40,493 nucleotides of DNA, taken from the NCBI GenBank assembly GCA_007694945.1, contig REER01000072.1:1-40493 (forward strand), read 5' to 3'. The notes below the pieces were generated by a model, which searched no databases, had not been told where the DNA came from, and saw nothing but the letters and a program-made list of their open reading frames with translations. Positions 8,792-40,150 of this stretch are shown here, in pieces; within the stretch, counting starts at the first letter, position 1; each line of letters starts with the position of its first letter. Position numbers and translations under genes: made by a program. Source of the DNA: Paracoccaceae bacterium. GTDB lineage: Bacteria > Pseudomonadota > Alphaproteobacteria > Rhodobacterales > Rhodobacteraceae.

Positions 8792-9081
8792 TGCTAGATC
8801 TGATTGCCGCTTCACTCGTCGTGTTCGGGACTGTGTTCTTTATCGCGGGCACAGTCGGGCTCTTGCGCTTCCCTGACATCTACTGCCGCCTGCATGCGCT
8901 GACCAAGGCCGACGGGTTGGGGCTTGCGCTTGTAGCGCTGGGGATGACGCTCAAGGCCGAGAGCTTTGGCGAGGTGTTCCGCATCGTCCTGATCTGGTTT
9001 TTTGTTGCGCTGGCGAGCGCCACCTGCGGGCATCTGATCGCGGCCTATGCACGGCAGGCCGACAGGGAGGGCAAGGCATGA
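8788..9081 (+). CDS. mnhG: Multisubunit cation/proton antiporter subunit G (MnhG/MrpG)
   Basis: A 97-residue protein with three predicted helices and the MnhG signature GTVGLLRFPDIYCRLHALTKAD directly after the first helix (R-F-P-D-x-x-x-R-x-H-A), followed by GLGLALVALGM. Short basic tail. It overlaps mnhF by four bases upstream and the fused MbhD/E-MnhB gene by four bases downstream. It is a membrane subunit of the Mrp-like complex. Confidence 0.92.
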   Translation: MMLDLIAASLVVFGTVFFIAGTVGLLRFPDIYCRLHALTKADGLGLALVALGMTLKAESFGEVFRIVLIWFFVALASATCGHLIAAYARQADREGKA

Positions 9082-17145: not shown

Positions 17146-17169
17146 GGCTGTTCCCTCTCAAGAAATTGG

Positions 17170-17198
17170 TTGACTCTCATAATATGTGCATACATAAA
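17170..17198 (+). promoter_or_regulatory. Candidate promoter for hutI operon
   Basis: TTGACT (17170-17175) and CATAAA (17193-17198) are separated by 17 bases, giving a sigma-70-like promoter pointing to hutI, about 65 bases before its start. The -10 end overlaps the candidate HutC operator, as expected for repression by blocking polymerase. This is inferred from sequence only. Confidence 0.45.
17183..17196. promoter_or_regulatory. Candidate HutC operator in the hutF/hutI divergent region
   Basis: The sequence tatgtgcatacata is an inverted repeat, TATGT-N4-ACATA, centred in the 119-base gap between the divergent hutF and hutI starts. GntR/HutC proteins bind short AT-rich palindromes of this type. 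Its position allows one repressor site to control both arms. Confidence 0.55.
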
Positions 17199-17264
17199 AA
17201 AAGCAACCCGGATTTCGTAACCATTCCCGTGCAATCGGCTCATACGACAGGATCGGAATAGCGC

Positions 17265-18461: not shown

Positions 18462-19972
18462 CCCTGATCCCCGGCGCCACTCCTCTGGCCCGACTCGAGA
18501 GCCTCTGGCGCGAGGGTCTGCCCGCACGGCTCGACCCGGCAACTGCTGGCCCCATCGCCGCTGCCGCTGAACAGGTACGGGTCGCGGCAGAAGGGGGCGC
18601 TGCGGTTTACGGCGTCAATACCGGCTTTGGCAAGCTCGCCTCGGTCAAGATCGCTCCCGAGGATACCGAAACCCTGCAGCGCAACCTGATCCTGAGCCAT
18701 TGCTGCGGCGTGGGCGAGGCGCTGGATATCCCGACAACCCGGTTGATGATGGCGCTCAAGCTCCTCAGCCTTGGCCGTGGTGCCTCGGGCGTGCAGCCGC
18801 AAACTGTCGCGCTAATCGAGGCCATGCTCGCGCGCGACGTCACGCCTGTCATCCCGGTGCAAGGCTCTGTCGGGGCCTCGGGTGATTTGGCACCGCTGGC
18901 GCATATGGCTGCGGTCATGATCGGTGCAGGCGAGGCGACAGTCGCTGGCGAGACACTACCCGGCACCGAAGCACTCGCGAAAGCGGGCCTCACCCCTATC
19001 ACGCTCGGGTCCAAGGAGGGCCTCGCGCTCATCAACGGCACCCAGTTTTCGACAGCGCTCGCCCTGACGGGCCTTTTCGACGCGTGGCGACTGGCACGCG
19101 AAAGCCTCGTCGTCGCCTGCCTCTCGACCGATGCCATCATGGGCTCGACTGCCCCGCTGCAACCCGAGATCCACAGCCTGCGCGGCCATCGTGGCCAGAT
19201 CGAGAGCGCGGATGCCATGCGCGCGCTGATGGCGGGCTCCGATATTCGCGACAGCCACCGCGATGGCGACTCCCGCGTGCAGGACCCGTATTGCATCCGC
19301 TGCGCGCCGCAGGTGCTGGGCGCCACCGTTGACCTGTTGCGCTTTGCCGCCCAGACGCTTGAGATCGAGGGCAATTCCGTCACCGATAACCCCCTCGTAA
19401 CTCGCGCAGGCATCATTTCGGGCGGCAATTTCCATGCCGAGCCGGTCGCTTTCGCGGCTGATATCATCGCGCTGGCGCTGGCCGAGATCGGCGCCATTGC
19501 GCAGCGCCGCGTCGCGCTGATGGTCGACCCCACGCTCAGCTTCGACCTGCCGCCCTTCCTCACCCCTGATCCGGGCCTCAATTCGGGGCTGATGATCGCC
19601 GAAGTCACCACCGCCGCGCTGATGAGTGAGAACAAGCATCTCGCCAATCCTTGTTCGACCGACTCGACCCCGACTTCTGCCAATCAGGAAGATCACGTCT
19701 CGATGGCCGCACATGGGGCCCGCCGCCTTGCGCGCATGACCAGCAATCTCGCAAGTATCCTTGGTGTCGAAGCTCTCTGCGCCGCGCAAGGCATTGAGTG
19801 TCGCGCGCCCCTTGTGACCTCGCCCCCGCTGCAACGCGCACTGGTCCGCATCCGTGACGTCAGCCCCGCGCTCACCACCGACCGCTATTTGGCCCCCGAC
19901 CTGCGCGCCGCCGCCGTCCTCATCAGCGACGGCGCGCTCGCCCATGAGACCGGACTGGACCTGACCCTATGA
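18455..19972 (+). CDS. hutH: Histidine ammonia-lyase
   Basis: A 505-residue lyase. The Ala141-Ser142-Gly143 triad within [16 protein letters not shown] forms the MIO electrophilic cofactor by self-cyclisation. Other family segments are [36 protein letters not shown] and [12 protein letters not shown]. It deaminates L-histidine to urocanate, the first step of the pathway. Start at the ATG 18455 is supported by ttcggaggcg upstream, inside the end of hutI; extension upstream is only a shadow frame. Confidence 0.96.
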
Positions 19973-20042
19973 CCGTCATCCGTTTCATCTTGCCAAAAAT
20001 ACTCAATTCAACCTTCAACCCCGCAGCCCGAGGTCCTCGCAG
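19973..20042. other. hutH-hutG spacer with a Rhodobacterales-type intergenic motif
   Basis: The 70-base spacer is the only real break in the rightward hut operon. It contains tttcatcttgccaaaaatac (starting at 19983), a string I associate from memory with intergenic positions in Rhodobacterales genomes. No terminator hairpin follows, so hutG is probably still co-transcribed. A possible ribosome site (cgaggtc) precedes hutG. What the motif does is unknown to me. Confidence 0.35.
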
Positions 20043-20834
20043 ATGACCCCTTACACGCTCCAACGCGGTGACGGTCCGGTCCTGCTGGCCATGCCCCATA
20101 CAGGAACCTGGCTTCCGCCCCAGATAATCGCCCGGCTCAACCCGCGCGGGCAGACGCTCTCTGACACAGATTGGCATATCGAGCGGCTCTATGACGGGTT
20201 GCTGCCCGGCGCCACGATCCTGCGCGCCAACTTCCACCGCTATGTGATCGATGCCAACCGCCCACCCGATGATGCAAACCTCTATCCGGGGCAGAACACG
20301 ACCGGGCTTTTTCCGCTTACCGATTTCGACGGAAACCCTATCTGGACGGAGCCACCCAGTGCGGAAGAGTTCGCCGCCCGTCTGCGCGACTACCACGTGG
20401 CCTATCACGCGGTTCTGGCGGAAGAACTTGCGCGTCTCCGAGCGCAGCATGGCGTGGCGATCCTATATGACTGTCACTCAATCCGCTCGTATATCCCGCG
20501 TCTCTTTGACGGTATCTTGCCTGATTTCAATATCGGCACCGCAGACGGCACATCCTGCGCCACTGCAGTTGAAGCCGCTGTACAGACCGTCTGCGCGCGC
20601 TGTGAAGGGTACAGCCATGTCGTGAATGGCCGCTTCAAGGGTGGTTGGACGACGCGGCACTATGGCCGCCCGAGTGACGGTATCCACGCGATCCAGATGG
20701 AACTGGCCCAGAGCACCCATCTTGCGCAGGAAGTCCCGCCCTTCACCTATGACGAGGACAAGGCCGCACGGCTGCGCCCGATCCTCGCCGACATCCTCCA
20801 CCACCTGGCCGATCTGGCCCCCAGCTTGAGGTGA
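20043..20834 (+). CDS. hutG: N-formylglutamate deformylase
   Basis: A 263-residue member of the N-formylglutamate amidohydrolase family: [39 protein letters not shown], and the metal-site [19 protein letters not shown]. It hydrolyses N-formyl-L-glutamate to formate and glutamate, completing the HutF route. The C-terminal [13 protein letters not shown] segment and IQMELAQ are conserved in the family. It lies 70 bases after hutH and four bases before hutU. Confidence 0.95.
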
Positions 20835-20838
20835 TGCC

Positions 20839-22524
20839 ATGACCAACTCCCGCCACAATATCCGCGACATCTACCCAGCAACCGGCCCCGAGATCACGGC
20901 GAAAAGCTGGCTGACCGAGGCCGCGATGCGGATGCTGATGAACAACCTCCACCCCGATGTGGCCGAGAACCCGCATGAGCTGGTGGTCTATGGCGGCATT
21001 GGCCGCGCCGCCCGTACATGGGAAGATTTCGACCAGATCGTGGCGTCACTGAAGGATCTGGAGGGCGACCAGACCCTGCTGGTGCAATCCGGCAAGCCCG
21101 TGGGCGTGTTCCGCACCCACCGCGATGCGCCGCGCGTGCTGATCGCGAATTCAAACCTCGTGCCGCATTGGGCGACCTGGGACCATTTCAGCGAACTCGA
21201 TCGCAAGGGGCTGATGATGTATGGCCAGATGACCGCAGGCTCCTGGATCTATATCGGCACGCAGGGCATCGTGCAGGGCACCTATGAGACCTTTGCCGAG
21301 GCCGGGCGGCAGCATTACGGCGGTGATCTGCGCGGCAAATGGATTCTGACGGCCGGTCTGGGGGGTATGGGCGGCGCTCAGCCGCTGGCCGCCGTCATGG
21401 CTGGGGCCTGCTGTCTGGCCGTGGAGTGCGACGAGACCCGCGCCGATTTCCGCATCCGCACCCGCTATTGTGACGCCAAGACTCATTCGCTTGACAAGGC
21501 GCTGGCGATGATCGCTGACTGGACCGCGAAGGGTGAGACGAAGTCGGTCGCGCTTATTGGTAATGCCGCCGAAATCTTCCCCGAGCTTGCCCGCCGTCTG
21601 AAAGAAGGCGGCCCTCGCCCCGATATGGTAACTGACCAGACTTCAGCACATGATCCGGTGCATGGCTATCTGCCGCTGGGCTGGTCCGTCGCTGAATGGC
21701 GCGTCAAACAGGAGAGCGACCCCAAAACCGTCGAAGCTGCCGCGCGGGCCAGCATGAAGATCCATGTGGCCGCTATGGTCGATTTCTGGAACGCGGGCGT
21801 GCCCACACTGGATTACGGCAACAACATCCGCCAAGTGGCGCTGGAGGAGGGTTTCGAGAATGCCTTCGCCTTTCCCGGTTTTGTGCCTGCATATATCCGG
21901 CCACTTTTCTGCCGCGGTGTCGGGCCATTCCGCTGGTGCGCACTCTCGGGCGACCCCGAGGATATCTACAAGACCGACCTGCGCATGAAGGAATTGTTCC
22001 CCGAGAACGACCACCTGCACCGCTGGCTGGACATGGCCCGCGAGCGCATCGCCTTTCAGGGCCTGCCCGCGCGGATCATGTGGATCGGGCTGGGCGAGCG
22101 GCACGAGGCCGGGCTGGCGATCAATGAGATGGTGCGCAACGGCGAGCTGAAAGCGCCGGTCGTGATCGGCCGCGACCATCTGGATTCGGGCTCCGTCGCC
22201 TCGCCCAACCGCGAGACCGAGGCAATGAAGGACGGCTCGGACGCCGTTTCTGACTGGCCCTTGCTGAACGCGCTGCTGAACACCGCCAGCGGCGCCACCT
22301 GGGTCAGCCTGCATCATGGCGGCGGGGTCGGTATGGGCTTTTCGCAGCATTCGGGCATGGTGATCGTCTGCGATGGCTCGGATGAGGCCGACCGGCGGTT
22401 GGAGCGCGTGCTCTGGAATGACCCGGCCACCGGCGTGATGCGCCATGCGGATGCGGGCTATGACACCGCACTCGATTGCGCACGTGCGCATGGGCTTTCT
22501 CTGCCTGCGATCCTGAAGGGCTAG
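20839..22524 (+). CDS. hutU: Urocanate hydratase (urocanase)
   Basis: A 561-residue urocanase at full family length, with [20 protein letters not shown], the NAD-binding [46 protein letters not shown], and [13 protein letters not shown]. It hydrates urocanate to 4-imidazolone-5-propionate using tightly bound NAD+. It is the last gene of the rightward arm. With hutH, hutI, hutF and hutG in the same locus, the entire pathway from histidine to glutamate is present. Confidence 0.96.
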
Positions 22525-26642: not shown

Positions 26643-26698
26643 GCCGTGCGACGGCAGCGAACAGTCGCAGGTATCGAGTCCGATCCGTTCACCGGATC
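26643..26698. terminator. Pair of inverted repeats between convergent operons
   Basis: Two perfect short hairpins lie in the 84-base gap: gccgt gcg acggc (26643-26655) and gatccg ttcac cggatc (26682-26698), the latter touching the mct stop codon. Neither has a clear T-run, so termination is only suggested by their position between convergent transcripts. Confidence 0.35.
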
Positions 26699-27941
26699 AT
26701 TCAGCGGCTCTCAGGGTGATACCATTGAGACGCGGGCCCGTAACAATCCCCCTGTCGAACAGCCTGCCGATCTCGCCAGACGACAGTCCAGCGGTTTCGG
26801 CCAGCACTTCCTCCGTATGTTCGCCTAGGGCAGGTGCGGGTTGCGGGGCCTCGCGGCTGATCGCTGAGAAGCCAAGCGGTGAGGCCGGGGTCGGATAACT
26901 GCCAATGCCGGGCTGATCGACCATCTGGAACAACGGGTTGTCGGTCGAGAGATCGGGATCTTCGCGTACGGCTTCGGCGAAGCTGCGGAACTGCGACCAC
27001 GTCACGCCGCCCGTGTCGAAGGCCTTGGAAAAGTCCTCGACCTTACGCTGCGCGAAGAAGGGGGCGAGCACTTCCGTGATCGCGCCTCTATGCCGGAAGC
27101 GTGCGCCTTCCTGACCGAGGCTTTCGCCCAGCCGTGCTTCCAGCGCGGCGATGGCGTCCTGCGTGCCAGTCGCCTTCACCAGCCCGTGCCACTGCCGGTC
27201 GGTCAGGCCGATCACCATTACGCGCTTGCCATCGGCGCAGATGAAATCCTGCCCATAGCCGCCGTAAAGCGCATTGCCGCATTTGGGTCGGTCAGTGCCG
27301 TTGATCGTCACCTCGCCGATAATACCCAGATTGCCCAACATCGCCGCTGCCGCGTCCTTGAGCGAGAAAAGCACTTCCTGCCCTTCGCCGGTGCGCAGCC
27401 GATGCCGCTCGGCGGCCAGCAGGGCGGTTACGGCCATGTTGCCCGCGATGCAATCCCAAGCGGGCAGAACCTGCGCGACGGGTTCGGTCGACCCTTCTGG
27501 CCCGGTGGCAGTCGGGAAGCCCAGAGACGGATTGACCGAGTAATCCACAGCGGGCCGCCCATGCCTGTCGCCGAGAAGCGCGACCATGATCAGATCATCG
27601 CGGTGGCGCGAGAGGGTCTCATGATCCATCCAGCCACGCACGCGCAAATTGGTCAGGAACAGCCCTGCGTCGTCGCCGGGTGCCGTGATGATCCGCGTGA
27701 TCAGCTCGCGCCCGGCAGGCGATTTCATGTCTACGGCGACGGATTTCTTGCCCTTGTTCAGCCCCGCCCAGAACAAACTCTGCCCATCATTGGTCACAGG
27801 CCAGCGTTGCGCATCCAGACCGCCCTCAATCCGGTCGAAGCGGATCACTTCGGCGCCCATCTGCGCCAGCGTCATGCCTGCAAGCGGGATGGCGACAAAG
27901 GCCGAGCCCTCGACCACACGCATGCCCTTGAGAATACCCAT
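26697..27941 (-). CDS. mct: Mesaconyl-CoA C1:C4 CoA transferase (2-methylfumaryl-CoA isomerase), class III CoA transferase
   Basis: A 414-residue CaiB/BaiF-family CoA transferase. The expected catalytic Asp is Asp163 in LPAWDCIAGNMAVTALLAAE. Long stretches match what I remember of Chloroflexus Mct: RVVEGSAFVAIPLAGMTLAQ, FWAGLNKGKKSV, DYSVNPSLGFPTATGP, and the distal MVDQPGIGSYPTPASPL. Mct moves CoA within mesaconyl-CoA from C1 to C4. The gene follows meh by three bases and ends the operon sga-mcl1-mtkA-mtkB-meh-mct. Alternatives are itaconate or succinate CoA transferases of the same family, which also sit beside MaoC- and CitE-type genes; the Mct-like sequence makes those less likely. Confidence 0.78.
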   Translation of the reverse strand: MGILKGMRVVEGSAFVAIPLAGMTLAQMGAEVIRFDRIEGGLDAQRWPVTNDGQSLFWAGLNKGKKSVAVDMKSPAGRELITRIITAPGDDAGLFLTNLRVRGWMDHETLSRHRDDLIMVALLGDRHGRPAVDYSVNPSLGFPTATGPEGSTEPVAQVLPAWDCIAGNMAVTALLAAERHRLRTGEGQEVLFSLKDAAAAMLGNLGIIGEVTINGTDRPKCGNALYGGYGQDFICADGKRVMVIGLTDRQWHGLVKATGTQDAIAALEARLGESLGQEGARFRHRGAITEVLAPFFAQRKVEDFSKAFDTGGVTWSQFRSFAEAVREDPDLSTDNPLFQMVDQPGIGSYPTPASPLGFSAISREAPQPAPALGEHTEEVLAETAGLSSGEIGRLFDRGIVTGPRLNGITLRAAE

Positions 27942-27944
27942 CGC

Positions 27945-28829
27945 TCATTCCTCCCATTCAAAGCGGGCTTGCAGCCCCTGGTGGCCTTCAGCGGCCGCAG
28001 TGCAGAGCTTGAGTGCACATTCGCCATCGCGCTCGGCCTGCAGGTCTAGATGCCCGTCAAACATCGGATGCACGCCGCGAAAGCTGAAGCGCGTGGGTGT
28101 CTGACCGGTGTGGCGCATCGCGGCCTCCATCAGGAGCGTCGCCTGCATCGGGCCATGCACGACGAGGCCGGGGTATTTTTCGGTCTCGCGCGCATAGTCG
28201 CGGTCATAATGGATGCGATGCGCGTTATAGGTCGCAGCTGAATAGCGGAACAGCCGCACAGGCCCGACCTCGACCCGCTCGCTGAAGATAGGCGCTTCGG
28301 GGGCGGGGATGGAGCGGGGGGCGCGGAATTTATCGGGGATCGGCAGATAGACGATATCCTGCTCTTCGCGGATCGCCCCGCCGCCCTCGCCGCGCAGGTC
28401 ATGGCCCACGCGTACAAAGGCCATGTCGCCGGTGCTGCCGGTCTTGAAATCCACACTCAGGATCTCGGAGCGTCTGGTCAGCGTCTCGCCCACCGCAAAG
28501 CGGCCCTTGAAGGTCAGCTTGCCACCTGCCCACATGCGCCGGTTGAAGGGCAGGGGGGGCAAGAAGCCGCCAAGCATGGGGTGGCCATCCGTCGCGATTT
28601 CCGCAATCGGCACGAACTCAGGAAACGCGACCCAATGCCAGAGTACGGGCAAGAGGGCACCAGTGTGAATAGGGGGTTGGGGCGCCGCGTCATGCCCCAG
28701 CGCACCCATCGCCATGCCCGCCAGGTCTGGCGTGACCGCCCCGGTCCGGGTCTCGACCCGGCCCACCCAGGCTTGCGCCTGCTCAGGGGTCGCGGCCTCG
28801 CCAGTCAGGGTGCCTTGCGTCTTGCTCAT
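27945..28829 (-). CDS. meh: Mesaconyl-C4-CoA hydratase (3-methylfumaryl-CoA hydratase), MaoC/FAS1-like double hot-dog
   Basis: A 294-residue two-module hot-dog protein. The C-terminal module carries the hydratase-2 motif: Asn202 and His207 in YNAHRIHYDRDYA followed by LVVHGPMQATLL (201-232). The N-terminal module contains LPPLPFNRRMWAGGKLTFKG, characteristic of the HTD2/FAS1-like dehydratases to which Chloroflexus Meh belongs. The reaction is mesaconyl-C4-CoA + water to (S)-citramalyl-CoA. It overlaps mtkB by four bases and precedes mct by three. Itaconyl-CoA hydratase is the main alternative; the neighbour Mct and malyl-CoA lyase favour Meh. Confidence 0.75.
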   Translation of the reverse strand: MSKTQGTLTGEAATPEQAQAWVGRVETRTGAVTPDLAGMAMGALGHDAAPQPPIHTGALLPVLWHWVAFPEFVPIAEIATDGHPMLGGFLPPLPFNRRMWAGGKLTFKGRFAVGETLTRRSEILSVDFKTGSTGDMAFVRVGHDLRGEGGGAIREEQDIVYLPIPDKFRAPRSIPAPEAPIFSERVEVGPVRLFRYSAATYNAHRIHYDRDYARETEKYPGLVVHGPMQATLLMEAAMRHTGQTPTRFSFRGVHPMFDGHLDLQAERDGECALKLCTAAAEGHQGLQARFEWEE

Positions 28830-29722
28830 GCAGCTTGCCTCATGCCAAGCACTTTCGCGACCGTCTCGCCCAGGGCCGAGGGTGTGGGCGCGACTGTGAT
28901 GCCCGCAGCCGAGAGGATCTCGACCTTCTCCTGCGCGCTCTCGCCAAAGGCCGAGATGATCGCGCCCGCATGGCCCATCTTGCGCCCCTTGGGTGCCGAC
29001 AGACCGGCGATATAGGCGATGACAGGCTTGGTCATGTGATCGCGTGCATACGCGGCGGCCTCGGCCTCCTGCGGGCCACCGATTTCGCCGATCATCATCA
29101 CGGCGTCAGTCTCGGGGTCGTTCTCGAAGAGTTCGAGGATGTCCTTGAAGCTGGAGCCGTTGATCGGATCGCCCCCGATCCCGACCGAGGTCGACACCCC
29201 GATCCCCAGCGCCTTCATCTGGGACGCGGCCTCATAACCAAGCGTGCCCGAGCGGCCCACGATACCGACGCGCCCGGGCAGGTAGATATGTGGCGGCATG
29301 ATCCCCATGAAGCCGATACCGGGCGAGATGACGCCTGCGCAATTAGGGCCGATGAAGCGCATCTTGCGCGCCGCTGGGAAGCGGCGCAGGAAGCGTTTGA
29401 CCTTCATCATGTCCTGCGAGGGGATGCCGTCGGTCACGCAGATCGCGAATTTCAGCCCCGCTTCGGCACATTCCATGATTGCATCAGCGGCACCGGGCGG
29501 GGGCACGAAAATGAGGCTTGCCTCGGCGCCCGTTTCTGCAGCGGCCTCGGAAACCGTGTTGAACATAGGCTTGCCGAGCACGATTTCGCCGCCTCGGTCG
29601 GGGGTCACACCACCCACGACATTGGTACCATTCTTGATCATGTCCTCGGCATGAAATTTGCCGATGCGCCCGGTCATGCCCTGAACGATGATGCGAGTGT
29701 CTTGCTGGATGAGAATTGCCAT
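28826..29722 (-). CDS. mtkB: Malate-CoA ligase (malate thiokinase) alpha subunit
   Basis: A 298-residue SucD-type subunit with NVVGGVTPDRGGE, GPNCAGVISPG, PGRVGIVGRSGTLGYEA, VGIGGDPINGSSF and MIGEIGGPQEAEAA. The phospho-accepting His251 is in KMGHAGAII. Similarity to Methylobacterium MtkB is stronger than to housekeeping SucD in several segments (ITDGIPAQDMMRVKR-like, IMPPHIYLPGRVG). The enzyme makes L-malyl-CoA from malate, ATP and CoA. It lies 14 bases after mtkA and beside malyl-CoA lyase, which fits malate rather than succinate as substrate. Confidence 0.9.
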   Translation of the reverse strand: MAILIQQDTRIIVQGMTGRIGKFHAEDMIKNGTNVVGGVTPDRGGEIVLGKPMFNTVSEAAAETGAEASLIFVPPPGAADAIMECAEAGLKFAICVTDGIPSQDMMKVKRFLRRFPAARKMRFIGPNCAGVISPGIGFMGIMPPHIYLPGRVGIVGRSGTLGYEAASQMKALGIGVSTSVGIGGDPINGSSFKDILELFENDPETDAVMMIGEIGGPQEAEAAAYARDHMTKPVIAYIAGLSAPKGRKMGHAGAIISAFGESAQEKVEILSAAGITVAPTPSALGETVAKVLGMRQAA

Positions 29723-29736
29723 GAGCGTGCTCCTGT

Positions 29737-30906
29737 TCAGGCGGCCATTGCGGGGCGTGATGCGACCGCCGTGGCGGCGGCTTCGGCCAGGGTGTCGGCG
29801 GAAATCAGTGGCAGGCCGGACTCATTTATGATCCAGCGACCCTCATCGACATTGGTGCCCGCAAGGCGCACGACGACAGGCAGGGTCAGGTTCAGCTCGC
29901 GATAGGCCTGCACCACGCCGGAGGCGACCCAGTCGCAACGGTTGATACCAGCGAAGATGTTGACCAGTACGACCGAGACATTCGGGTCGCTCAAAACCGT
30001 ACGGAAGGCTGCGACCACCCGCTCGGGGCTGGCACCACCACCGATATCGAGGAAATTCGCGGGGCTTCCACCGGCGAGCTGGATCATGTCCATCGTCGCC
30101 ATCGCCAGCCCCGCGCCGTTGATGATGCAGCCGATATCGCCCTCGAGCCCGACATAGTTCAGCCCATGTTCGGCAGCAGCATCCTCGCGCGGGTCTTCCT
30201 GACCTGGGTCGCGGAGTGCGGCCACTTCGGGGCGCCGGAATAGCGCGTTGGTGTCGAAACTCATCTTGGCATCGAGGGCAATCAGATCACCCGAACCAGT
30301 GATCACCAGCGGGTTGATCTCGACCATGGTCGCGTCGAGGTCGCGAAAGGCGCGATAACAGCCGCGCATCACATTGGAAAACTGTGCGATCTGACTGCCC
30401 GACATGCCCAGCTTGAATGCCAATTCGCGCGACTGGAACGGCACGAGCCCCGTGGCCGGGTCGATCACCATGCGCACCAGCGCGTCGGGCCGGTCCTCGG
30501 CCAGCTCCTCGATTTCCATGCCGCCTTCGCGAGAGGCGACGATCATGATGCGTTCGGATTTGCGGTCGAGGACGAGGCCCAGATACAGTTCCTTGCTGAT
30601 ATCCGTGGCCTTCTCAACAAGCAAGCGGTGCACAGGCTTGCCCTGCGCGTCGGTCTGTTTGGTCACCAGATTGCGGCCCAAAAGCGAGAGCGCGAAGGCG
30701 TTCACCTCGGTCTCGCTCCGGCAGAGTTTCACTCCGCCAGCGGCACCGCGCCCCCCGGCATGCACCTGCGCCTTTACGACCACAGGCAGGCCCAATTTCC
30801 GCGCCTCATGCATCGCCTGTTCCGGGGCGAAGGCGATGCCACCATCGGGGACGGGCACACCGAAGCGGCGCAACACGTCCTTGGCCTGATGTTCGTGAAT
30901 ATCCAT
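29737..30906 (-). CDS. mtkA: Malate-CoA ligase (malate thiokinase) beta subunit
   Basis: A 389-residue SucC-type subunit: [20 protein letters not shown], the ATP-grasp region [59 protein letters not shown], and [20 protein letters not shown]. The last segment and [17 protein letters not shown] closely resemble Methylobacterium MtkA. It pairs with mtkB just downstream to form malyl-CoA. It starts 12 bases after mcl1 on the same strand. A succinyl-CoA synthetase role is the alternative, but a housekeeping sucCD would normally sit by mdh or sucAB. Confidence 0.9.
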
Positions 30907-30918
30907 CGGGTTTCCTCC

Positions 30919-31893
30919 TTATTCGGCGGCCTGCGCGGGCGCGCTGCGGGCCGCGATGGCATCGGCGAGCGAAAGCACATTCAACGCCATTTTCTCGGAG
31001 GCCGCGTCGATCATTTTGCCATCGAGTGCAGCAGCCCCCTTGCCCTCGGCCTCGGCCTTGCGCAGCTCCGCGATGATGCGCCGCGCGCGGTCCACTTCGG
31101 ATGCGGGCGGGCTGAAGACTTCGTTGGCCATCGCGATCTGACTCGGATGGATGGCCCATTTGCCCTCGAACCCAAGGGCGGCCGCGCGCTCGGCGGCGGC
31201 TATGTAGCCATCAGGATCGTTGAAGTCACCGAAGGGGCCATCGAGCGCGCGCAACCCGTATGCGCGGCAGGCAATGATCATGCGCGAGAGCGAGGCATGC
31301 CACTGATCGCCCGGATAGGCCGGGTTCAGCCCGCCGATATTGACCGTGCGCGCACGCATCGAGGCCGCGTAATCCGCCACACCGAAATGCAGTGCCTCCA
31401 GCCGCGAGTCCGAGGTCGCGGCATAGCGCGCGATTTCCCCGACATTGGCCATGCCGAGCGCCGTCTCGATCAGCGCCTCCAACCCCACACGGCGGGTCAG
31501 CCCGCAGGCCTGCTCGATCTGATTGACCAGCGCATCGACCATATAGAGGTCGGACACCACGCCCAGTTTCGGGATCAGCAGCATGTGCACGCGATCACCC
31601 GCCTGCTCCATGATATCGACCACGTCGCGATACATGTAACCGGTATCCAGCCCGTTTATGCGAACGCTGACGGTCTTGCCCTTGGCCTCCCAGTCGATCT
31701 CGTTCAGTGCAGCGATGGCATTCTTGCGCGCCTGCGCTTTCTCGGGCGGCGCGACCGCGTCCTCAAGGTCAAGGAACACGACATCGGCAGCCGACCCGGC
31801 GGCCTTCTCGATCATGGTGACATTAGAGGCCGGAACAGCCAGGGTCGAACGTTGCAGGCGCTGGCGGCGGAGGGGGAAAAGCGAGTGGCTCAT
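30919..31893 (-). CDS. mcl1: L-malyl-CoA/beta-methylmalyl-CoA lyase (CitE family)
   Basis: A 324-residue HpcH/HpaI-CitE family lyase: STLAVPASNVTMIEKAAGS, DVVFLDLEDAVAPPEKAQAR, the metal-binding EALIETALGMANVGEIA and EALHFGVADYAASM, and FEGKWAIHPSQIAMANEVF. The sequence matches Rhodobacter/Methylobacterium malyl-CoA lyases. It cleaves L-malyl-CoA to acetyl-CoA and glyoxylate, and reversibly condenses glyoxylate with propionyl-CoA to beta-methylmalyl-CoA. Some relatives also cleave (S)-citramalyl-CoA to acetyl-CoA and pyruvate; this third activity would be needed for the complete route suggested by meh and mct. It lies 12 bases after sga and 12 before mtkA. Confidence 0.92.
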   Translation of the reverse strand: MSHSLFPLRRQRLQRSTLAVPASNVTMIEKAAGSAADVVFLDLEDAVAPPEKAQARKNAIAALNEIDWEAKGKTVSVRINGLDTGYMYRDVVDIMEQAGDRVHMLLIPKLGVVSDLYMVDALVNQIEQACGLTRRVGLEALIETALGMANVGEIARYAATSDSRLEALHFGVADYAASMRARTVNIGGLNPAYPGDQWHASLSRMIIACRAYGLRALDGPFGDFNDPDGYIAAAERAAALGFEGKWAIHPSQIAMANEVFSPPASEVDRARRIIAELRKAEAEGKGAAALDGKMIDAASEKMALNVLSLADAIAARSAPAQAAE

Positions 31894-31905
31894 GTCAGGA
31901 CGTCC

Positions 31906-33105
31906 TTATTCGGCAGCAATGGCAAAGGCAGGGGCGGGTGCATGGGCGGCAAAAGTGGTCTGTGCAGCAGCAAGCCCCGCGCCCAGTTCGACCCGCGCAC
32001 CAGCGGCTTTCAGCGAGAGTTCGGCCATTCCAAGCGCGGTCAGGCACATGCCCTCGTTCAGGTCGCCCAGATGGCCGATGCGGAAGGCCTGGCCCGCCAG
32101 AGGCCCCAGACCCGCGCCGAATTGCGTGTTGTAGCGCGTGCGGGCAATCTCGATCACCTCGCGCGCATCGACATCTCGCGGCGTGCGGATGGCAGTCACA
32201 GTGTCCGACGCAAAGCTCGGATGTTCGGCCACGATATCGAGACCCATCGCGGCAATGCCAGCGCGTACCCCTTGGGCCAGACGGCGATGGCGGGCAAAGA
32301 CATTGCCCAGACCCTCGGCCTGCAACCTGGCCAGCGCCGCGCGCAGACCATGCAGCAGTTGCGCGGGTGGCGTGAAGCAGAACGAGCCTGCCTCATGCGC
32401 CCCGAGCATGGCGCGCAGGTCAAGAAAACTGCGCGCCATGGTGCCGGTCTCCATCGCTTCCAGCGCGTTGGGGCTTGCGGCCAGAATGCCCATCCCCGCC
32501 GGGCACATCAGGCCCTTCTGCGTGCCCGCAATCGCCAGATCGACGCCCCAGGCATCCATCTCGAAGGGGATCGAGCCGATGGAAGAGACGCCATCGACAA
32601 ACAGCAGCGCGTCATGGAAGCAGGTATCAAGCGCATGGCGCACGCCTGCCACATCAGAGGTCACACCCGTCGCCGTTTCGTTATGTGTGACGAAGACGGC
32701 CTTGATCTCGTCATATTTGTCTGCGCCCAGGCGGCGCTCTATCTCGCGCACAGGGCCGGGGGCGCCCCAGGCGACGTCAATCGCCTCAACCCGCAGCCCC
32801 AGCGCCTGCGCCATCTGCGCCCAGAGCATCGAAAATTGCCCGTGGCGCGCGATCAGCACCTTGTCGCCGGGCGACAGCGTGTTGGCGATGGCGGCTTCCC
32901 ATGCCGCCGTGCCCGAGCCGGGGAAGAGCGCAATCTCGGCCGTGCGGGTGCCAAAAATAGGTTTCAGCCCCTTGCGCACTTCATCCAGCAACCCGCCAAA
33001 ATCCGGCGCTCGGTGGTCCTGCATAGGCACAATCATGGCGCGCTGCACGTCGGCAGGTACATTGGTCGGGCCGGGAATGAAAAGATGGGCGGTGCCTGTC
33101 TGCAT
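31906..33105 (-). CDS. sgaA: Serine-glyoxylate aminotransferase
   Basis: A 399-residue class V PLP-dependent aminotransferase. Segments: LFIPGPTNVPADVQRAM, LFPGSGTAAWEAAIANTL, VTHNETATGVTSDV, LLFVDGVSSIGSIPFEMD, and the PLP-lysine Lys197 in AIAGTQKGLMCPAGM. It transfers the amino group of serine to glyoxylate, giving hydroxypyruvate and glycine (serine cycle). I use the ATG at 33105, which follows acggaggaatcgacc; the longer start at 33153 has no ribosome site. It leads the operon. A close alternative in this family is aspartate-glyoxylate aminotransferase (BhcA), but the mtk/mcl context argues for the serine cycle. Confidence 0.88.
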   Translation of the reverse strand: MQTGTAHLFIPGPTNVPADVQRAMIVPMQDHRAPDFGGLLDEVRKGLKPIFGTRTAEIALFPGSGTAAWEAAIANTLSPGDKVLIARHGQFSMLWAQMAQALGLRVEAIDVAWGAPGPVREIERRLGADKYDEIKAVFVTHNETATGVTSDVAGVRHALDTCFHDALLFVDGVSSIGSIPFEMDAWGVDLAIAGTQKGLMCPAGMGILAASPNALEAMETGTMARSFLDLRAMLGAHEAGSFCFTPPAQLLHGLRAALARLQAEGLGNVFARHRRLAQGVRAGIAAMGLDIVAEHPSFASDTVTAIRTPRDVDAREVIEIARTRYNTQFGAGLGPLAGQAFRIGHLGDLNEGMCLTALGMAELSLKAAGARVELGAGLAAAQTTFAAHAPAPAFAIAAE

Positions 33106-33191
33106 GGTCGATTCCTCCGTTCGTTGCCTGTCTATGGCAGAGGCAGAGGGCATGCTGCGAATGAAACCGGGTTCTGCTGTAACTGCGAACG

Positions 33192-33223
33192 TTTACAAAA
33201 CGTAACTTCTGTTGCATTGTAAA
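33192..33223. promoter_or_regulatory. Candidate ScfR operator in the sgaA/scfR divergent region
   Basis: TTTACAAA (33192-33199) and ATTGTAAA (33216-33223) form an inverted repeat with a 16-base spacer in the 145-base gap between the divergent starts. ScfR-family regulators (PccR, RamB) are described as binding TTTGCAAA-like half-sites, so this differs by one base per half. One site could control both directions. Confidence 0.45.
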
Positions 33224-33250: not shown

Positions 33251-34660
33251 ATGCGCAAGACATTCATCGGCCCGCGCTTGCGTCGTCTGCGCCAGGATGC
33301 AGCTGAAACGCAAAGCGCAATGGCCAAACGGCTTGGCATTTCTGCGGCTTATGTGAATCTTCTGGAGAACAATCAACGCTCGGTCTCGGTCGCCATCTTG
33401 CTCAAGCTGATGGAGCAATACGGCGTGGATTGGCACGACCTGTCGGACGAAGGCTCGGGCGCGCAACTGGCCGATCTGCGCGGGGTGCTGCATGACCCGT
33501 TGTTTGACGATGCAAGGCCCGACCTGCACGAGTTGCGGAGCGCTCAGACCCACACGCCCACCCTGATTGATGCTTTCCTGCGGTTGCACCGCGCCTATCA
33601 GAATGCGACAGACCAGCTGCTTGCCCTCGCCGCGCAGCCGGGTGAGCATGAGCCGATCGTGAGCGCCAGCCCCGAAGGCGCAGTTCATCACTTTTTTCGC
33701 CGCCAGCGCAATCATTTCCCGGCACTTGAACAGGCAGCCGCTGGGCTCTGGGACAAAGGTAACGCGCCATCGACAGACGATTTCTATGCTGCGCTGAAGG
33801 AGCGGTTGCGCAGCCGTCACCATATAGCGGTACGCGTGGTGCAGGTCGGTGATTTGCCTCGCACACTGCGTCATTATGATGACAGTCGCGCCGAAGTGCT
33901 GCTGTCCGAAGCGCTCGACCATCCGAATCGTGTCTTCCAGTTGGTGCATGTACTGGGCCTGATCGAGCATCGCGAGGTGTTGGACAGTCTGCTCGACAGT
34001 GCCGGGATTGACGACCAGCAAGGCCGCGCGCGTTGTCTGGTGGAACTCGCCAATTACTTCGCCGCCGCCGCGCTTATGCCCTATGATCCCTTTCTCGCCG
34101 CAGCGCGGGCATCAAAATATGATTTCGACCATCTGGCGACCCGCTTCGGCGTCAGTTTCGAGCAAGCCTGCCACCGCGCCACAACGCTGCAACGCGAAGG
34201 TGCGCAGGGGGTGCCGTTGTTCTTCCTGCGCATCGACAAGGCGGGGAATGTGACCAAGCGTTTCAACGCGACCGATTTTCATCTGGCGGAATATGGCGGT
34301 GCATGCCCCAAGCTCGATGTGCATATGACCTTTCGCCTGCCGGGCCGCATTGTTTCGCAACTGGTCGAGATGCCTGATGCCTCACAGTTTTTCGTCTTCG
34401 CCCGAACCGTTGATCGCCCCACGTTCGAGCGCCGTGGTCAGGACAACCGGCTGGCCGTTGCGATGGGCTGCACCATCGAATATGCGCCAAAAATCGGCTA
34501 CAGCGAGGGCATCGCACTCCAGGGGGCGGCGCCGACACCCATTGGCATCAACTGCCGCATCTGTCCGCGCGCCGGATGCGAGCAGCGCGCGCATCAGACG
34601 GCCCTGTTGAAAACCCCGGTCAATGCGGCAAGGCGGGGGGCGACGCGATACGATGTATGA
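33251..34660 (+). CDS. Short-chain acyl-CoA-responsive regulator (ScfR family, XRE-HTH + DUF2083)
   Basis: A 469-residue regulator. The N-terminal XRE helix-turn-helix is RLRRLRQDAAETQSAMAKRL, then ISAAYVNLLENNQRSVSV; the middle contains an ImmA/IrrE-like domain (FQLVHVLGLIEHREVL, RCLVELANYFAAAALMPYD); and the C-terminal DUF2083 ends with the Cys cluster GINCRICPRAGCEQRAHQ, diagnostic of ScfR. Known members (PccR in Rhodobacter sphaeroides, RamB and MldR in actinobacteria) sense acyl-CoAs and activate or repress acetate/propionate assimilation genes. I start at the ATG at 33251, since the HTH begins immediately after it; an upstream ATG at 33212 adds 13 residues without a ribosome site. It is divergent from sgaA. 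Confidence 0.9.
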   Translation: MRKTFIGPRLRRLRQDAAETQSAMAKRLGISAAYVNLLENNQRSVSVAILLKLMEQYGVDWHDLSDEGSGAQLADLRGVLHDPLFDDARPDLHELRSAQTHTPTLIDAFLRLHRAYQNATDQLLALAAQPGEHEPIVSASPEGAVHHFFRRQRNHFPALEQAAAGLWDKGNAPSTDDFYAALKERLRSRHHIAVRVVQVGDLPRTLRHYDDSRAEVLLSEALDHPNRVFQLVHVLGLIEHREVLDSLLDSAGIDDQQGRARCLVELANYFAAAALMPYDPFLAAARASKYDFDHLATRFGVSFEQACHRATTLQREGAQGVPLFFLRIDKAGNVTKRFNATDFHLAEYGGACPKLDVHMTFRLPGRIVSQLVEMPDASQFFVFARTVDRPTFERRGQDNRLAVAMGCTIEYAPKIGYSEGIALQGAAPTPIGINCRICPRAGCEQRAHQTALLKTPVNAARRGATRYDV

Positions 34661-36678: not shown

Positions 36679-37884
36679 ATGTCACACCAGGACGCATTCA
36701 TCACGCGTGCCCAGTCAGACGAGCCCGAGACCGAGCGCGCCATTGCCGAGGTTCTCGGGCAGGTCGACGCTACCTCGTTCGCGCTTCTGATCCTGTTCGT
36801 AGGCGAGGGGCATGATCTCAAGGCTATCGAGCGCGCGCTTGTCCCGGTTGTCGGGCAGACCCAGGTCATCGGCTGCACGACTGCAGGCGAGATCGGGGCA
36901 GGTGGGTATTTGACTGGTTCCATCGTGGCGATGGGCCTGCCCCGCAGTCTGTTTCGCGTCGCCACCGGTTACCTGAACGACCTGCGCCGCTTCAGCCCCG
37001 ATCTGGCACGCGACCTAGCATTCGAATTGCGGGCCGAGGTGACCTTCTCGACCGCCGATTGGGCTAACGAAGTCGCCTTCCTGCTCAGTGACGGGCTATC
37101 ACTTATGGAGGAACAACTCGCCTGGGCTTTATCCGAGGCGCTCGGTCAAAGTCCGCTGGTTGGCGGGTCGGCCGGGGATGGGCTGAATTTCGGCAAGACC
37201 TTCGTGCTGCATCAGGGCCGTTTCATGACCAACACGGCCGTGCTCGCGGTGTTGCGCACACCTTGCCGGGTCACGGCCTTTCGCTTCGACCATCTGGAAC
37301 CCACAGAGCATCGGATGGTGGTTACGGATGCCGACCCGGACAACCGACTCGTCCGTGCGATAAATGGTATGCCCGCCGGCCCCGAGTACGCCCGCATCCT
37401 TGGCAAGGACCCGCAGCAACTCTCGCCTTTCACTTTTGCCGCCAATCCCGTTGTATCGAAAATCGGCGAGGACCACCACGTTCTGGCCATTCAGCGGGTC
37501 GAGCCTGACGGCACCCTGCGCTTCTTCTCGGCCATTGAATGCGGGCTCGTGTTGCGTCTTGCCCAGAGCACCGATCTGGAGGCCCATCTGGAGCGTGAGT
37601 TAACCAAGCTGTCGGCCAAGGTGGGCGCGCCTGCGATCCTCGCCTGTGACTGCATCCTTCGCCGCCTTGAGGCCGAACACAGTCAGAAGCAACACCGCCT
37701 CTCGGCGCTGCTCGACCGTTTTGGTGTGACGGGGTTCAACACCTATGGCGAGCAGTTCAACCTTGTCCATGTCAACCAGACCTTCACTGGTCTTGCCTTT
37801 TATCCACCCGCCGAGGATACTGATTCACTCACTGCATCGGATTATCTCGGGCAATCTGCCAGCCGGGAGGCAGAAGATGTCTGA
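36679..37884 (+). CDS. FIST-domain sensor protein (NosP-like)
   Basis: A 401-residue protein with FIST N (residues ~30-225: SFALLILFVGEGHDL, QVIGCTTAGEIGAGGYLTGS, GGSAGDGLNFGKTFVLHQGR) and FIST C (~225-380: ARILGKDPQQL, LRFFSAIECGLVLRLAQ, LACDCILRRLEAEHSQKQHR, GFNTYGEQF). Some FIST proteins, notably NosP of Pseudomonas and Shewanella, bind haem and respond to nitric oxide by inhibiting a partner hybrid kinase. Start at 36679 is supported by a long ggggagggg site. It overlaps the kinase gene by eight bases, a strong hint at a direct partnership. Haem binding cannot be seen from sequence alone. Confidence 0.88.
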   Translation: MSHQDAFITRAQSDEPETERAIAEVLGQVDATSFALLILFVGEGHDLKAIERALVPVVGQTQVIGCTTAGEIGAGGYLTGSIVAMGLPRSLFRVATGYLNDLRRFSPDLARDLAFELRAEVTFSTADWANEVAFLLSDGLSLMEEQLAWALSEALGQSPLVGGSAGDGLNFGKTFVLHQGRFMTNTAVLAVLRTPCRVTAFRFDHLEPTEHRMVVTDADPDNRLVRAINGMPAGPEYARILGKDPQQLSPFTFAANPVVSKIGEDHHVLAIQRVEPDGTLRFFSAIECGLVLRLAQSTDLEAHLERELTKLSAKVGAPAILACDCILRRLEAEHSQKQHRLSALLDRFGVTGFNTYGEQFNLVHVNQTFTGLAFYPPAEDTDSLTASDYLGQSASREAEDV

Positions 37885-40150
37885 GAGCTTTCTGACTGAC
37901 GATCTGAGCCTTGCAGACGAAAACGAACGCCTGCGCCTGATCGTGAGCGCACTTATGGACCGTGCCGAACGGATCACACAGGGCGCGAGCCGCCCGGCTG
38001 CGCAACTTGCCCATGTCGTCGCGCTGGAGAGTCAGGTGCGCACACGCACGCGCGACCTGGCCGAAACGCTCGACCGGCTGCGCGTGGCCAATGCGCGGCT
38101 ATCACAGGCCGAGCGCGATGCGGTCGGCGCGCGCAATGCGTTGGCAGACGCGTTGGAAGCCATGGTTGAAGGTTTCGCAATGTTCGACGCCGAGGATCGG
38201 CTGACCATGTGGAACTCGCGCTTTTGTGCCGACCTGCCCGATGTCCGGCGCCGCATCGGACCGGGACTGACCTTCCGGGATTATGTGCGCATTGTATCGG
38301 AGAGCCCGGGGCTGAATCTGGCTGACAGTTCTGAGCGCCGCGAATGGGTGACGCAGCGGCTGGAGAACCATCAACGGCGCGATGTGAATTTCATGGTGCA
38401 GCTGGTGGAGGATCAATGGCTTCAGGTCTCGGAACAGCGCATGAGTTCGGGCGGGACCGCGGTCACGCAGACTGATGTGACCGCCATGGTACGAAATGCC
38501 CGTGAAGAGCGCACCAAGCTGCTGGACGAACAGGCGCAGATGGTGCGCGCGACGCTCGATCATATCGATCAGGGGGTGTTGATCTTCGATGCCAAAGCCC
38601 GGCTTGCGGGTTGGAATCGGCGCCTGCGAGAGTTGTTCTCCCCGCCGGTGGACCTACTAGCGGCGGGAACACCCTTCACGGCGATTCTGAACAACCTGAT
38701 GCGCCGCCGTCAGTTGGGTCGCAGTAATATTCGCGCAACCCTCACTGACTGGGTCAACGGCCCGCCGCACCGGCCGCCCTTGAAGGTTGAGATCGTGCAG
38801 GAGGAGGGCAACATACTGGACCTCTTCGCGCAAGCGATGCCGGATAGAGGGTTCGTGATCTCGTTCAACGACCTCACCAAGGAGCGCCGCGCAATTGCCG
38901 AAATGCACCGGATGAACGAGACGCTTGAAGCGCGCGTTCGCGCGCGCACATTGGAGCTGGAATCCGCCCGGGATGAGGCCGAGCGTGCCAATGCCTCGAA
39001 GTCGCGCTTCGTGGCTTCGGCCAGCCATGACCTGCTGCAGCCCCTCAATGCTGCCAAGCTGTTTCTGTCCTCCTTATCCGGAATGGAGCAGCCTCCAGCG
39101 CAGACGCGGCTGGTCGAACGCGTCAACTCGGCCTTTGGCTCGGTCGAGCAGATTCTGGGCGCGCTTCTGGATATTTCCAAATTCGATATCGGCGCAGCCC
39201 ATGCGAAACCCGAGAGTTTTGCTCTCGCGCCCCTTCTGGACAGGCTGCGCGAAGAATTTGCTCCGATGGCCACTGCACGCGGGCTTGGATTTCGGGTGCA
39301 CGACACGCGCGCTCATGTCCATAGCGACCCGGTCTATCTCAAGCGCGTTCTGCAGAACCTTCTGTCCAATGGACTGCGCTACACCAAGAGTGGTCGGATC
39401 ATCTTGGGCGTGCGCCATAGGGGCAAATACCTTCGGATAGAAGTCTGGGATACAGGCCCCGGCATTCCAGAGGACAAGCAGACAGAGATCTTTCGCGAGT
39501 TCACCCGGCTCGACCCGGCTCAGGGCGACAGTGGCATGGGCTTGGGCCTGGCTATTGTCGAGCAAGCCTGCGCACTGCTTGGGCATCCGCTGACATTGCG
39601 GTCGATCGAGGGTAAGGGAACGGTCTTCAGCGTCACGGTGCCGCTTGTGGAACCTGATCAGCGGCGTGAGGCGGTGAAAGACCTACATGACAGCAAGCGT
39701 GACGCACTCGACGACCTGCTGGTTCTGGTGGTCGAGAATGACCGCGAAGTGCGCAGCGCGATGATCGGAGTGCTGGAAGGGTGGGGCACCAGTCCGATCG
39801 AAGCGGCAACACTCGCGGAAGCTGAAGCTCTGATCGACGAACTCGGCGTGCCTCCCGACGTCATTCTAGCCGATTACCAACTGGATCATGGCGCCAATGG
39901 GCTCGACCTGGTGCGCGACCTGCGCGTGAGGCATGGTATGCTCCCTGCGGTGCTGATCACGGCGGACCATAACCCTGATCTCGCACAGAAAGCCGACGAG
40001 CAGGGCATTCTCTTGTTACGCAAACCACTTTCGCTGCGCAGGCTACAGCGATTACTGCGCCATATCCCGGCCCAGCAGACCGAGCCCCAAAGCAGGGCAG
40101 AACGCGGCGATCACAGCTACTGGTTCCGACAGGTGAATATTGCGGAATAG
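37877..40150 (+). CDS. PAS-containing hybrid sensor histidine kinase (NahK-like)
   Basis: A 757-residue protein without membrane helices. It has an N-terminal coiled coil (~14-90), two PAS domains (MVEGFAMFDAEDRLTMWNSR and IDQGVLIFDAKARLAGWNRR), a second coiled coil, HisKA with His384 in FVASASHDLLQPLNAAKLFL, then the HATPase with N-box LQNLLSNGLRYTKSG, G1 VWDTGPGIPEDKQ and G2 GDSGMGLGLAIVEQA, and a C-terminal receiver with Asp666 in ILADYQLDHGANG. This is the NahK/ErcS' architecture. Start at 37877 overlaps the FIST gene; upstream extension is only a shadow of FIST. It probably phosphorylates the NarL-type regulator, possibly via a phosphotransfer protein elsewhere. Confidence 0.92.
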   Translation: MSESFLTDDLSLADENERLRLIVSALMDRAERITQGASRPAAQLAHVVALESQVRTRTRDLAETLDRLRVANARLSQAERDAVGARNALADALEAMVEGFAMFDAEDRLTMWNSRFCADLPDVRRRIGPGLTFRDYVRIVSESPGLNLADSSERREWVTQRLENHQRRDVNFMVQLVEDQWLQVSEQRMSSGGTAVTQTDVTAMVRNAREERTKLLDEQAQMVRATLDHIDQGVLIFDAKARLAGWNRRLRELFSPPVDLLAAGTPFTAILNNLMRRRQLGRSNIRATLTDWVNGPPHRPPLKVEIVQEEGNILDLFAQAMPDRGFVISFNDLTKERRAIAEMHRMNETLEARVRARTLELESARDEAERANASKSRFVASASHDLLQPLNAAKLFLSSLSGMEQPPAQTRLVERVNSAFGSVEQILGALLDISKFDIGAAHAKPESFALAPLLDRLREEFAPMATARGLGFRVHDTRAHVHSDPVYLKRVLQNLLSNGLRYTKSGRIILGVRHRGKYLRIEVWDTGPGIPEDKQTEIFREFTRLDPAQGDSGMGLGLAIVEQACALLGHPLTLRSIEGKGTVFSVTVPLVEPDQRREAVKDLHDSKRDALDDLLVLVVENDREVRSAMIGVLEGWGTSPIEAATLAEAEALIDELGVPPDVILADYQLDHGANGLDLVRDLRVRHGMLPAVLITADHNPDLAQKADEQGILLLRKPLSLRRLQRLLRHIPAQQTEPQSRAERGDHSYWFRQVNIAE

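Follow-up and report, generated by a model that had tools for sequence, protein, structure and literature searches.

We describe a six-gene operon on a 40,493-nucleotide stretch of DNA from a Paracoccaceae bacterium (assembly GCA_007694945.1, contig REER01000072.1; the whole stretch is hereafter the window), together with the regulator gene that diverges from it and a DNA element lying between the two. It forms contig 139 in a draft assembly of 3.18 Mb, whose completeness is 95.41. The six open reading frames occupy 26697-33105 on the minus strand in the order sga-mcl-mtkA-mtkB-meh-mct, and from sga to mct they are spaced by 12, 12 and 14 bases, a 4-base overlap between mtkB and meh, and 3 bases. 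An earlier account made from the letters alone (the sequence-only reading) had given these genes, their order, strand and spacing, which the open reading frame coordinates bear out, although it overlooked the divergent regulator gene, scfR, and the two-box element. From the regulator to the end of the operon the features are as follows.

33251-34660, plus strand: scfR, divergent regulator of the RamB/PccR/PrpR (short-chain acyl-CoA regulator) family
33167-33223, unstranded: operator-like two-box element between scfR and sga
31906-33105, minus strand: sga, serine/aspartate-glyoxylate aminotransferase family, with an alternative in-frame start at 33153
30919-31893, minus strand: mcl, malyl-CoA/beta-methylmalyl-CoA lyase
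29737-30906, minus strand: mtkA, malate thiokinase large (beta) subunit
28826-29722, minus strand: mtkB, malate thiokinase small (alpha) subunit
27945-28829, minus strand: meh, mesaconyl-C4-CoA hydratase, FAS1_DH-region family
26697-27941, minus strand: mct, intramolecular mesaconyl-CoA transferase ortholog

Two sets of loci, both counted from tblastn tables, serve for comparison: named loci, which are the best 80 of 542 relatives (more exist), and loci from a sample of 295 genomes of the window's family; targeted gene searches covered 11 chosen genomes, eight of them with the operon. The six genes recur with the divergent regulator in seven of the 80 named loci, and within the family sample 10 loci outside the window's own genome have the same seven-gene unit, so the gene order is not a product of chance. 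Among cultured bacteria, strains of Roseibaca, Roseibacterium and Mameliella have the whole operon. Among the 80 best relatives the closest by mct is the Rhodobacteraceae metagenome-assembled genome 'CSSed165cm_253' (97%), presumably from soda-lake sediment, followed by metagenome genomes of Natronohydrobacter and Roseinatronobacter.

Judged by its sequence, Mct is an ortholog of the characterised intramolecular mesaconyl-CoA transferases. The solved Mct structures 8apq and 7xkg share 60% identity with it and give scores of 525 and 523 bits, compared with 106 bits for the next solved CoA-transferase family, so that the resemblance proposed by the sequence-only reading holds and the protein groups with characterised Mct rather than with intermolecular transferases. 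Equivalents of Arg47, Tyr136 and Asp165, numbered so that the letters coincide with the published numbering, are invariant across all 83 aligned Mct sequences. In a tree of these 83 rows, built from Mct alone and rooted at its midpoint, the Chloroflexales pair lies among proteobacterial sequences and is joined with Competibacteraceae and two Rhodospirillaceae (support 89/73).

Meh carries a PF13452 domain and, from its sequence, belongs within the mesaconyl-C4-CoA/itaconyl-CoA hydratase family. Its sole solved relatives at E values up to 0.01 are the itaconyl-CoA hydratase 8khg (180 bits, 44% identity over the aligned part) and the near-identical 8huc; the other reference used, the meh of a Contendobacter meh-mcl-mct cluster, is 42% identical. 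The Meh tree held 67 rows, short and contig-cut genes being excluded, and included one long outgroup row. Upstream of mct, either next to it or separated from it by mcl, the gene is present in 73 of the 80 named loci; in two of the remaining seven, mct sits close to or at the start of the contig.

This resemblance of Meh is what would favour a pathway for itaconate or mesaconate catabolism, in which the CoA transferase would activate the free C5 acid, the hydratase would form citramalyl-CoA and the lyase would split it, as would four loci (L042, L044, L045 and L047) where meh-mct is followed by a lyase merely 30-32% identical to the operon Mcl. The one such lyase scanned, that of L042, has an itaconate-pathway Ccl as its best model, under cut-off; these four genes perhaps encode a dedicated citramalyl-CoA lyase. 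An itaconyl-CoA hydratase also shows mesaconyl-C4-CoA hydratase activity (PMC12290011), so the likeness of Meh to such enzymes does not speak against a mesaconyl role. A grouping with itaconate enzymes was one of the checks that the sequence-only reading had set itself: Mct falls with the intramolecular class, whereas Meh does resemble the solved itaconyl-CoA hydratases, and their shared activity weakens that half of the test. Since the operon's sole CoA transferase groups with intramolecular Mct and keeps the residues of that class, the Chloroflexus member of which is virtually exclusively intramolecular (PMC9813914), and since an itaconate pathway offers no role for mtkAB and sga, we reject it as very improbable.

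The remaining four proteins are related to enzymes of glyoxylate and malyl-CoA metabolism. The best solved relative of Sga is the serine--glyoxylate aminotransferase 6pk1 (342 bits), and its sequence suggests that it probably converts surplus glyoxylate to glycine; a beta-hydroxyaspartate cycle, judged from Sga, is set aside because the best NCBI model, BhcA, scores 506 bits, under its cut-off of 650, and because the best solved relative is of the other kind. MtkA exceeds the cut-off of NF010647, malate--CoA ligase subunit beta (646.8 against 604 bits), MtkB matches the succinate-CoA ligase alpha model with 417.9 bits, and mtkB adjoins mtkA in all 28 family-sample loci that hold mtkA. The operon Mcl is closest among solved proteins to the malyl-CoA/beta-methylmalyl-CoA lyase 5ugr (365 bits; 292 bits to 4l9y), which we take to be the Methylobacterium enzyme. 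It is distinct from the Mcl1 encoded elsewhere in the same genome (G000:C70, 50% identity), which sits beside Rhodobacter Mcl1 in the Mcl tree. Supplied with acetyl-CoA and pyruvate in excess, that Rhodobacter enzyme makes citramalyl-CoA in vitro (PMC3832036), which is the ground for expecting Mcl-type lyases to handle this ester; by analogy the operon Mcl is probably a citramalyl-CoA lyase as well.

Candidates for the rest of such a pathway are encoded in the window's own genome. A true Mch, the enzyme that the sequence-only reading had required from elsewhere in the genome, is encoded on another contig and scores 443 bits to the beta-methylmalyl-CoA dehydratase 8hgn and 427 to 4e3e, presumably of Methylorubrum and Chloroflexus origin respectively. 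By homology, the enzymes Mch, Mct, Meh and Mcl of the lower half of the 3-hydroxypropionate bi-cycle thus stand together in one genome. A CitE-like gene lies close to mch, and in the Paracoccus gene table mch and mcl-2 likewise have close locus tags (PMC10370305). The ethylmalonyl-CoA pathway genes for which that reading had proposed a search are present too: Ccr scores above its cut-off here, as in all 11 genomes searched, and methylmalonyl-CoA mutase (Mcm), also above cut-off, is accompanied by a second, ethylmalonyl-type mutase (Ecm). A carboxyltransferase gene and a biotin-carboxylase-type gene adjoin Mcm and from that position probably encode propionyl-CoA carboxylase, another enzyme on that reading's search list. 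Isocitrate lyase has no match in this draft genome, and in the four of the 11 genomes that have matches these are all just short stretches of the profile; phosphoenolpyruvate (PEP) carboxylase is likewise without a match in the own draft genome and in five of the seven other operon genomes. No frame among the reductase-domain matches exceeds 470 amino acids, which speaks against a full-length propionyl-CoA synthase. Five CoA_transf_3 matches lie on five contigs, two of them fragments at contig ends, and an adjacent CoA-transferase (Smt) pair is not seen in the genome as assembled.

The divergent gene scfR encodes a protein with PF09856 ScfRs (188 bits), PF06114 IrrE-like and PF01381 HTH domains, all above cut-off; its likely start is the ATG at 33251, the open reading frame list beginning at a TTG at 33212. 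It reaches 349.7 bits with the RamB model, under the cut-off of 700, and the only solved relatives found are PrpR structures (6cyj and others). The element before the operon has the consensus CGGGTyCTGCTGTAAAtGCGA-N3-TTTACAA-N18-TTGTAAA. Of 32 loci given for comparison, L154 and L163 have no scfR match, and the 30 with an alignable scfR start were compared: by eye, every one of the 30 upstream regions has the left part (the consensus through TTTACAA; window 33167-33198), either exact or nearly so. TTTACAA-N18-TTGTAAA occurs with at most two mismatches in 22 of the 30 and with at most three in 28, L158 and L164 having the boxes at another spacing. For two 7-base boxes a spacer of 18 is the best among 4-25, and in 40 shuffles, taking the best of any spacer, at most one of the 30 loci came within two mismatches; the motif words being drawn from the same sequences, this control gauges strength and not independence.

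Searched with at most one mismatch, the left part has exactly one match in each of 24 of 35 genomes, these being 24 of the 28 with the operon mcl type (the misses are G006, G044, G093 and G252), and none in the seven without that type, while the reversed pattern has no match in any of the 35. Every match lies, by its coordinates, 1.3-1.4 kb upstream of the cluster mcl, so that at this stringency the element is a single site per carrier genome. It precedes every scfR-bearing variant read, including L011 and L070, where scfR faces meh-mct directly, without sga-mcl-mtkAB, as a reduced unit. In Paracoccus the ScfR-family protein RamB binds a pair of almost identical boxes 18 bp apart and is suggested to prefer beta-methylmalyl-CoA as its ligand (PMC10370305); the operon element may share this spacing.

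We propose a model in which the operon encodes the malate-to-pyruvate, or lower, half of the 3-hydroxypropionate bi-cycle. This half would be linked to the host's ethylmalonyl-CoA pathway and would use MtkAB for the job of succinyl-CoA:malate CoA transferase (Smt); on balance we judge this model likely. From the gene identities assigned by homology, their conservation, the element, and the presence of Mch, Ccr and two mutases, we infer the enzyme activities, the direction of flux, the cleavage of citramalyl-CoA, and the ligand and binding of the regulator. MtkAB would convert malate, ATP and CoA to malyl-CoA, which Mcl would cleave to acetyl-CoA and glyoxylate. Glyoxylate would then either be converted to glycine by Sga or be condensed by Mcl with propionyl-CoA to beta-methylmalyl-CoA, which the Mch encoded elsewhere would dehydrate to mesaconyl-C1-CoA. 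Mct would shift the CoA from C1 to C4, Meh would hydrate mesaconyl-C4-CoA to (S)-citramalyl-CoA, and the operon Mcl or Mcl1 would split this into acetyl-CoA and pyruvate. From the known reactions of the enzymes the net balance would be malate + propionyl-CoA + ATP + CoA to 2 acetyl-CoA + pyruvate + ADP + Pi, with no loss of CO2. ScfR would bind the two-box element before the operon and sense a CoA ester of the node, as is suggested for Paracoccus RamB and beta-methylmalyl-CoA.

The model rests on the orthology and conserved residues of Mct, on Mch, Ccr, the mutases and the carboxylase genes, on the want of an isocitrate lyase or PEP carboxylase match, on the co-occurrence of the operon mcl type with mct in 22 of 295 family genomes, and on the element before every scfR-bearing variant. 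Chloroflexus uses Smt for malate activation, and in four of the 80 named loci (L060, L067, L076 and L077, of the Competibacter type) two CoA-transferase genes precede meh-mcl-mct. The one pair scanned, that of L060, matches family III transferases broadly; from their position and from the make-up of the Chloroflexus and Accumulibacter clusters, we take these pairs to be SmtAB. By analogy, mtkAB may fill the place of SmtAB in the window operon, activating malate at the cost of ATP.

The same downstream steps could also serve without malate cleavage. In such a bypass Mct and Meh would tap the mesaconyl-C1-CoA of the ethylmalonyl-CoA pathway and a lyase would yield pyruvate and acetyl-CoA, so that acetyl-CoA, CO2 and 2 NADPH would give pyruvate, with one FADH2 returned; such a route would stand in for pyruvate synthase, tolerate oxygen and have no need of Mch or of propionyl-CoA carboxylation. 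Consistent with this, Ccr is universal among the genomes searched, Mct occurs without the operon mcl type in 25 of the 295 family genomes, and most of the 73 named loci with meh upstream of mct have no mtkAB in the stretch. Marivita lacus and Sulfitobacter sediminilitoris, whose loci consist of meh-mct only, have two Mcl-family matches each (48-49% and 35-37%; in Marivita lacus 48% and 37%); with just these two distant genes, Mcl1 would have to cleave citramalyl-CoA there. Gene content does not separate the bypass from our model, the steps after mesaconyl-CoA being common to both. As a reading of the operon the bypass nevertheless appears unlikely, because it does not account for the other four genes, those of MtkAB, Mcl and Sga. 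A combination of the two is conceivable, though we put it forward tentatively: by way of Mct and Meh the ethylmalonyl-CoA pathway would lead from acetyl-CoA and CO2 to pyruvate, tolerant of oxygen and without ferredoxin, and would be coupled here to ATP-driven malate cleavage by MtkAB and Mcl, and C2, C3 and C4 compounds would meet at a CO2-conserving node under a single-target ScfR switch that reads a CoA ester. Were this so, many ordinary Rhodobacteraceae would have a working half of the 3-hydroxypropionate bi-cycle.

The sequence-only reading had called the locus a serine-cycle operon. Taken literally, this would mean that sga, mcl and mtkAB serve C1 assimilation in a methylotrophic serine cycle, with meh-mct as an accessory outlet. 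The four genes do all belong to serine-cycle families, the own genome holds a formate-tetrahydrofolate ligase gene (FTHFS), though on another contig, and methanol oxidation in the host is possible, there being two gene pieces of the pyrroloquinoline quinone (PQQ) alcohol/methanol dehydrogenase type (G000:C19:5-1063 and G000:C63:3618-4187), one at a contig end and one above cut-off. In the Mcl tree, whose deep order is not used because of very long branches (Chloroflexus Mcl and the CitE outgroup), all 28 scfR-linked Mcl, with three rows lacking a detected scfR, fall on one side of a branch with SH-aLRT support of 98, nested among the more distant Mcl of serine-cycle-like clusters. From this nesting, the four 'serine-cycle' genes look to have been derived from serine-cycle ancestors and put under other control.

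Searches for PEP carboxylase, FTHFS and PQQ alcohol dehydrogenase, together with this tree, nonetheless led us to drop the label. PEP carboxylase is detected in two of the eight operon genomes (three of the 11 overall) and PQQ alcohol dehydrogenase is not above cut-off in three of the eight. More distant genes are carried by the serine-cycle-like clusters: two of five scfR-less clusters (L170-L174; mcl 68-74%, mtkA 61-64%) and one Mameliella alba cluster that has ppc and a separate mcl and mtkAB adjoin folD and ftfL, and across these three mcl is 61-71% and mtkA 61-64% identical to the operon genes. Mameliella alba has this cluster as well as the operon. With PEP carboxylase undetected in six of eight operon genomes, and folD/ftfL/ppc-linked clusters carrying the more distant Mcl and MtkA, the label is misleading, and a serine cycle as the role of the operon is improbable.

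The distribution across the family bears on the model in both directions. With the Mcl type called at E <= 1e-130 and Mct at E <= 1e-110, 36 of the 295 genomes have the operon-type mcl and 47 have mct; 22 have both, adjacent in 12 including the window. The Fisher p value for co-occurrence is 1.8e-11, or 1.4e-4 without the 12 adjacent cases, uncorrected for phylogeny. Ten of the 11 adjacent loci besides the window hold the full seven-gene unit. In L163 and L175, where mcl is at 77% and mtkA at 69% and 67%, the stretch shows no scfR. In L162 (G114) a gene 86% identical to the own-genome Mcl1 stands beside an scfR-sga-mcl-mtkAB cluster, a physical tie of this cluster to a gene of the ethylmalonyl-CoA pathway.

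Several observations weigh against our model. The co-occurrence statistic ignores phylogeny, the 36 genomes include the five with the scfR-less clusters L170-L174, the Mct counted for G031 is a contig-end fragment, and the eleventh adjacent locus, L154, has mct without meh and scfR. In nine loci scfR-(sga)-mcl-mtkAB stands without an adjoining meh-mct, and L177, a tenth, runs into its contig end; of these ten genomes, five have an Mct in another place (one as a fragment) and five have no match. As meh-mct is thus optional, malate cleavage may be the core job of the operon. The absences of isocitrate lyase and PEP carboxylase are provisional, since the genome is a draft, though relatives show the same absences. 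Mct fails the cut-off of its best NCBI family, 2-methylfumaryl-CoA isomerase TIGR04253 (549.7 against 725 bits), as do the Mct of Contendobacter (613) and Roseospira (594), and the equivalent of Arg314', a residue emphasised from simulations in a paper on Roseiflexus Mct (PMC9196870), is Gly in the operon protein. It is also Gly in 74 of the 83 Mct sequences and Arg in two, both Chloroflexales, so it is not a feature of the family as a whole. In the motif scan a spacer of 10 also scores high (21 of 30 loci), which leaves the exact box layout uncertain and makes more than two half-sites possible. No sigma-70-type promoter was found, the promoter and terminator scan giving nothing above shuffles.

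The mesaconyl-C4-CoA branch is regarded as a speciality of Chloroflexus, with scattered cases in proteobacteria and a partial bi-cycle in Kentron, Competibacter and Accumulibacter, and one alphaproteobacterial symbiont is named (PMC6593406); a genome survey took TIGR04253 as the marker of the bi-cycle (PMC9802188). With the lower half of that cycle the window genome has Mct, Meh, Mcl and Mch in common, and the reactions proposed from malyl-CoA to pyruvate and acetyl-CoA are the same, as is the proposed use in assimilating organic substrates (PMC6593406). Our operon differs in having MtkAB, at the expense of ATP, in the apparent place of CoA transfer by SmtAB, in adding an aminotransferase and a divergent ScfR gene, and in having mch on another contig; none of the own genome's reductase-domain matches lies in a long frame like that of propionyl-CoA synthase. 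It shares the sga, mcl, mtkA and mtkB families with the Methylobacterium serine cycle and differs by its meh-mct pair, by facing an ScfR-family gene, and by a genome without a PEP carboxylase match and with FTHFS on another contig. The ethylmalonyl-CoA pathway of Rhodobacter and Paracoccus has mesaconyl-C1-CoA, beta-methylmalyl-CoA and the regulator family in common with our model, and RamB there controls malate synthase and isocitrate lyase (PMC10370305, PMC12632250), whereas here scfR faces a malate-cleaving, mesaconyl-C4 operon and isocitrate lyase is unmatched. A synthetic photorespiratory bypass of Mcl, Mch, Mct and Meh (Shih et al. 2014, named in PMC9393500) likewise converts glyoxylate and propionyl-CoA to pyruvate and acetyl-CoA; it is laboratory-built, and the natural operon adds MtkAB as a source of glyoxylate. 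The sequence-only reading knew of no described operon combining MtkAB, Sga, Meh and Mct, and the open-access literature, with subscription papers outside its scope, likewise yielded no account of one, nor of Mct-Meh as a pathway in Rhodobacteraceae. The enzymes and reactions are already known; as far as searched, what is new is their combination, the apparent replacement of Smt by MtkAB and the proposed ScfR-type switch.

Elsewhere in the window lie several other gene groups. LamB/YcsF and two carboxyltransferase-domain genes (4443-6993) form a 5-oxoprolinase-type set, which we take to be PxpABC by name. Na+/H+ genes (MnhE and proton-antiporter-domain genes, 7758-13254) would suit a haloalkaline habitat, and histidine-degradation genes (15084-22524) comprise a HutF-type and another amidohydrolase, N-formylglutamate amidohydrolase, urocanase and a GntR/UTRA regulator. 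At 36679-40150 a gene for a NahK-like hybrid histidine kinase comes after a FIST-domain gene, an arrangement resembling the nitric-oxide-sensing NosP/NahK pairs.

Mct is present in 47 of the 295 sampled genomes of the window's family. If our model is true, the operon would be a natural counterpart of the designed photorespiratory bypass, and its regulator gene and DNA element render it testable at once. It would allow bacteria without the glyoxylate shunt to process glyoxylate and propionyl-CoA together with their carbon conserved.

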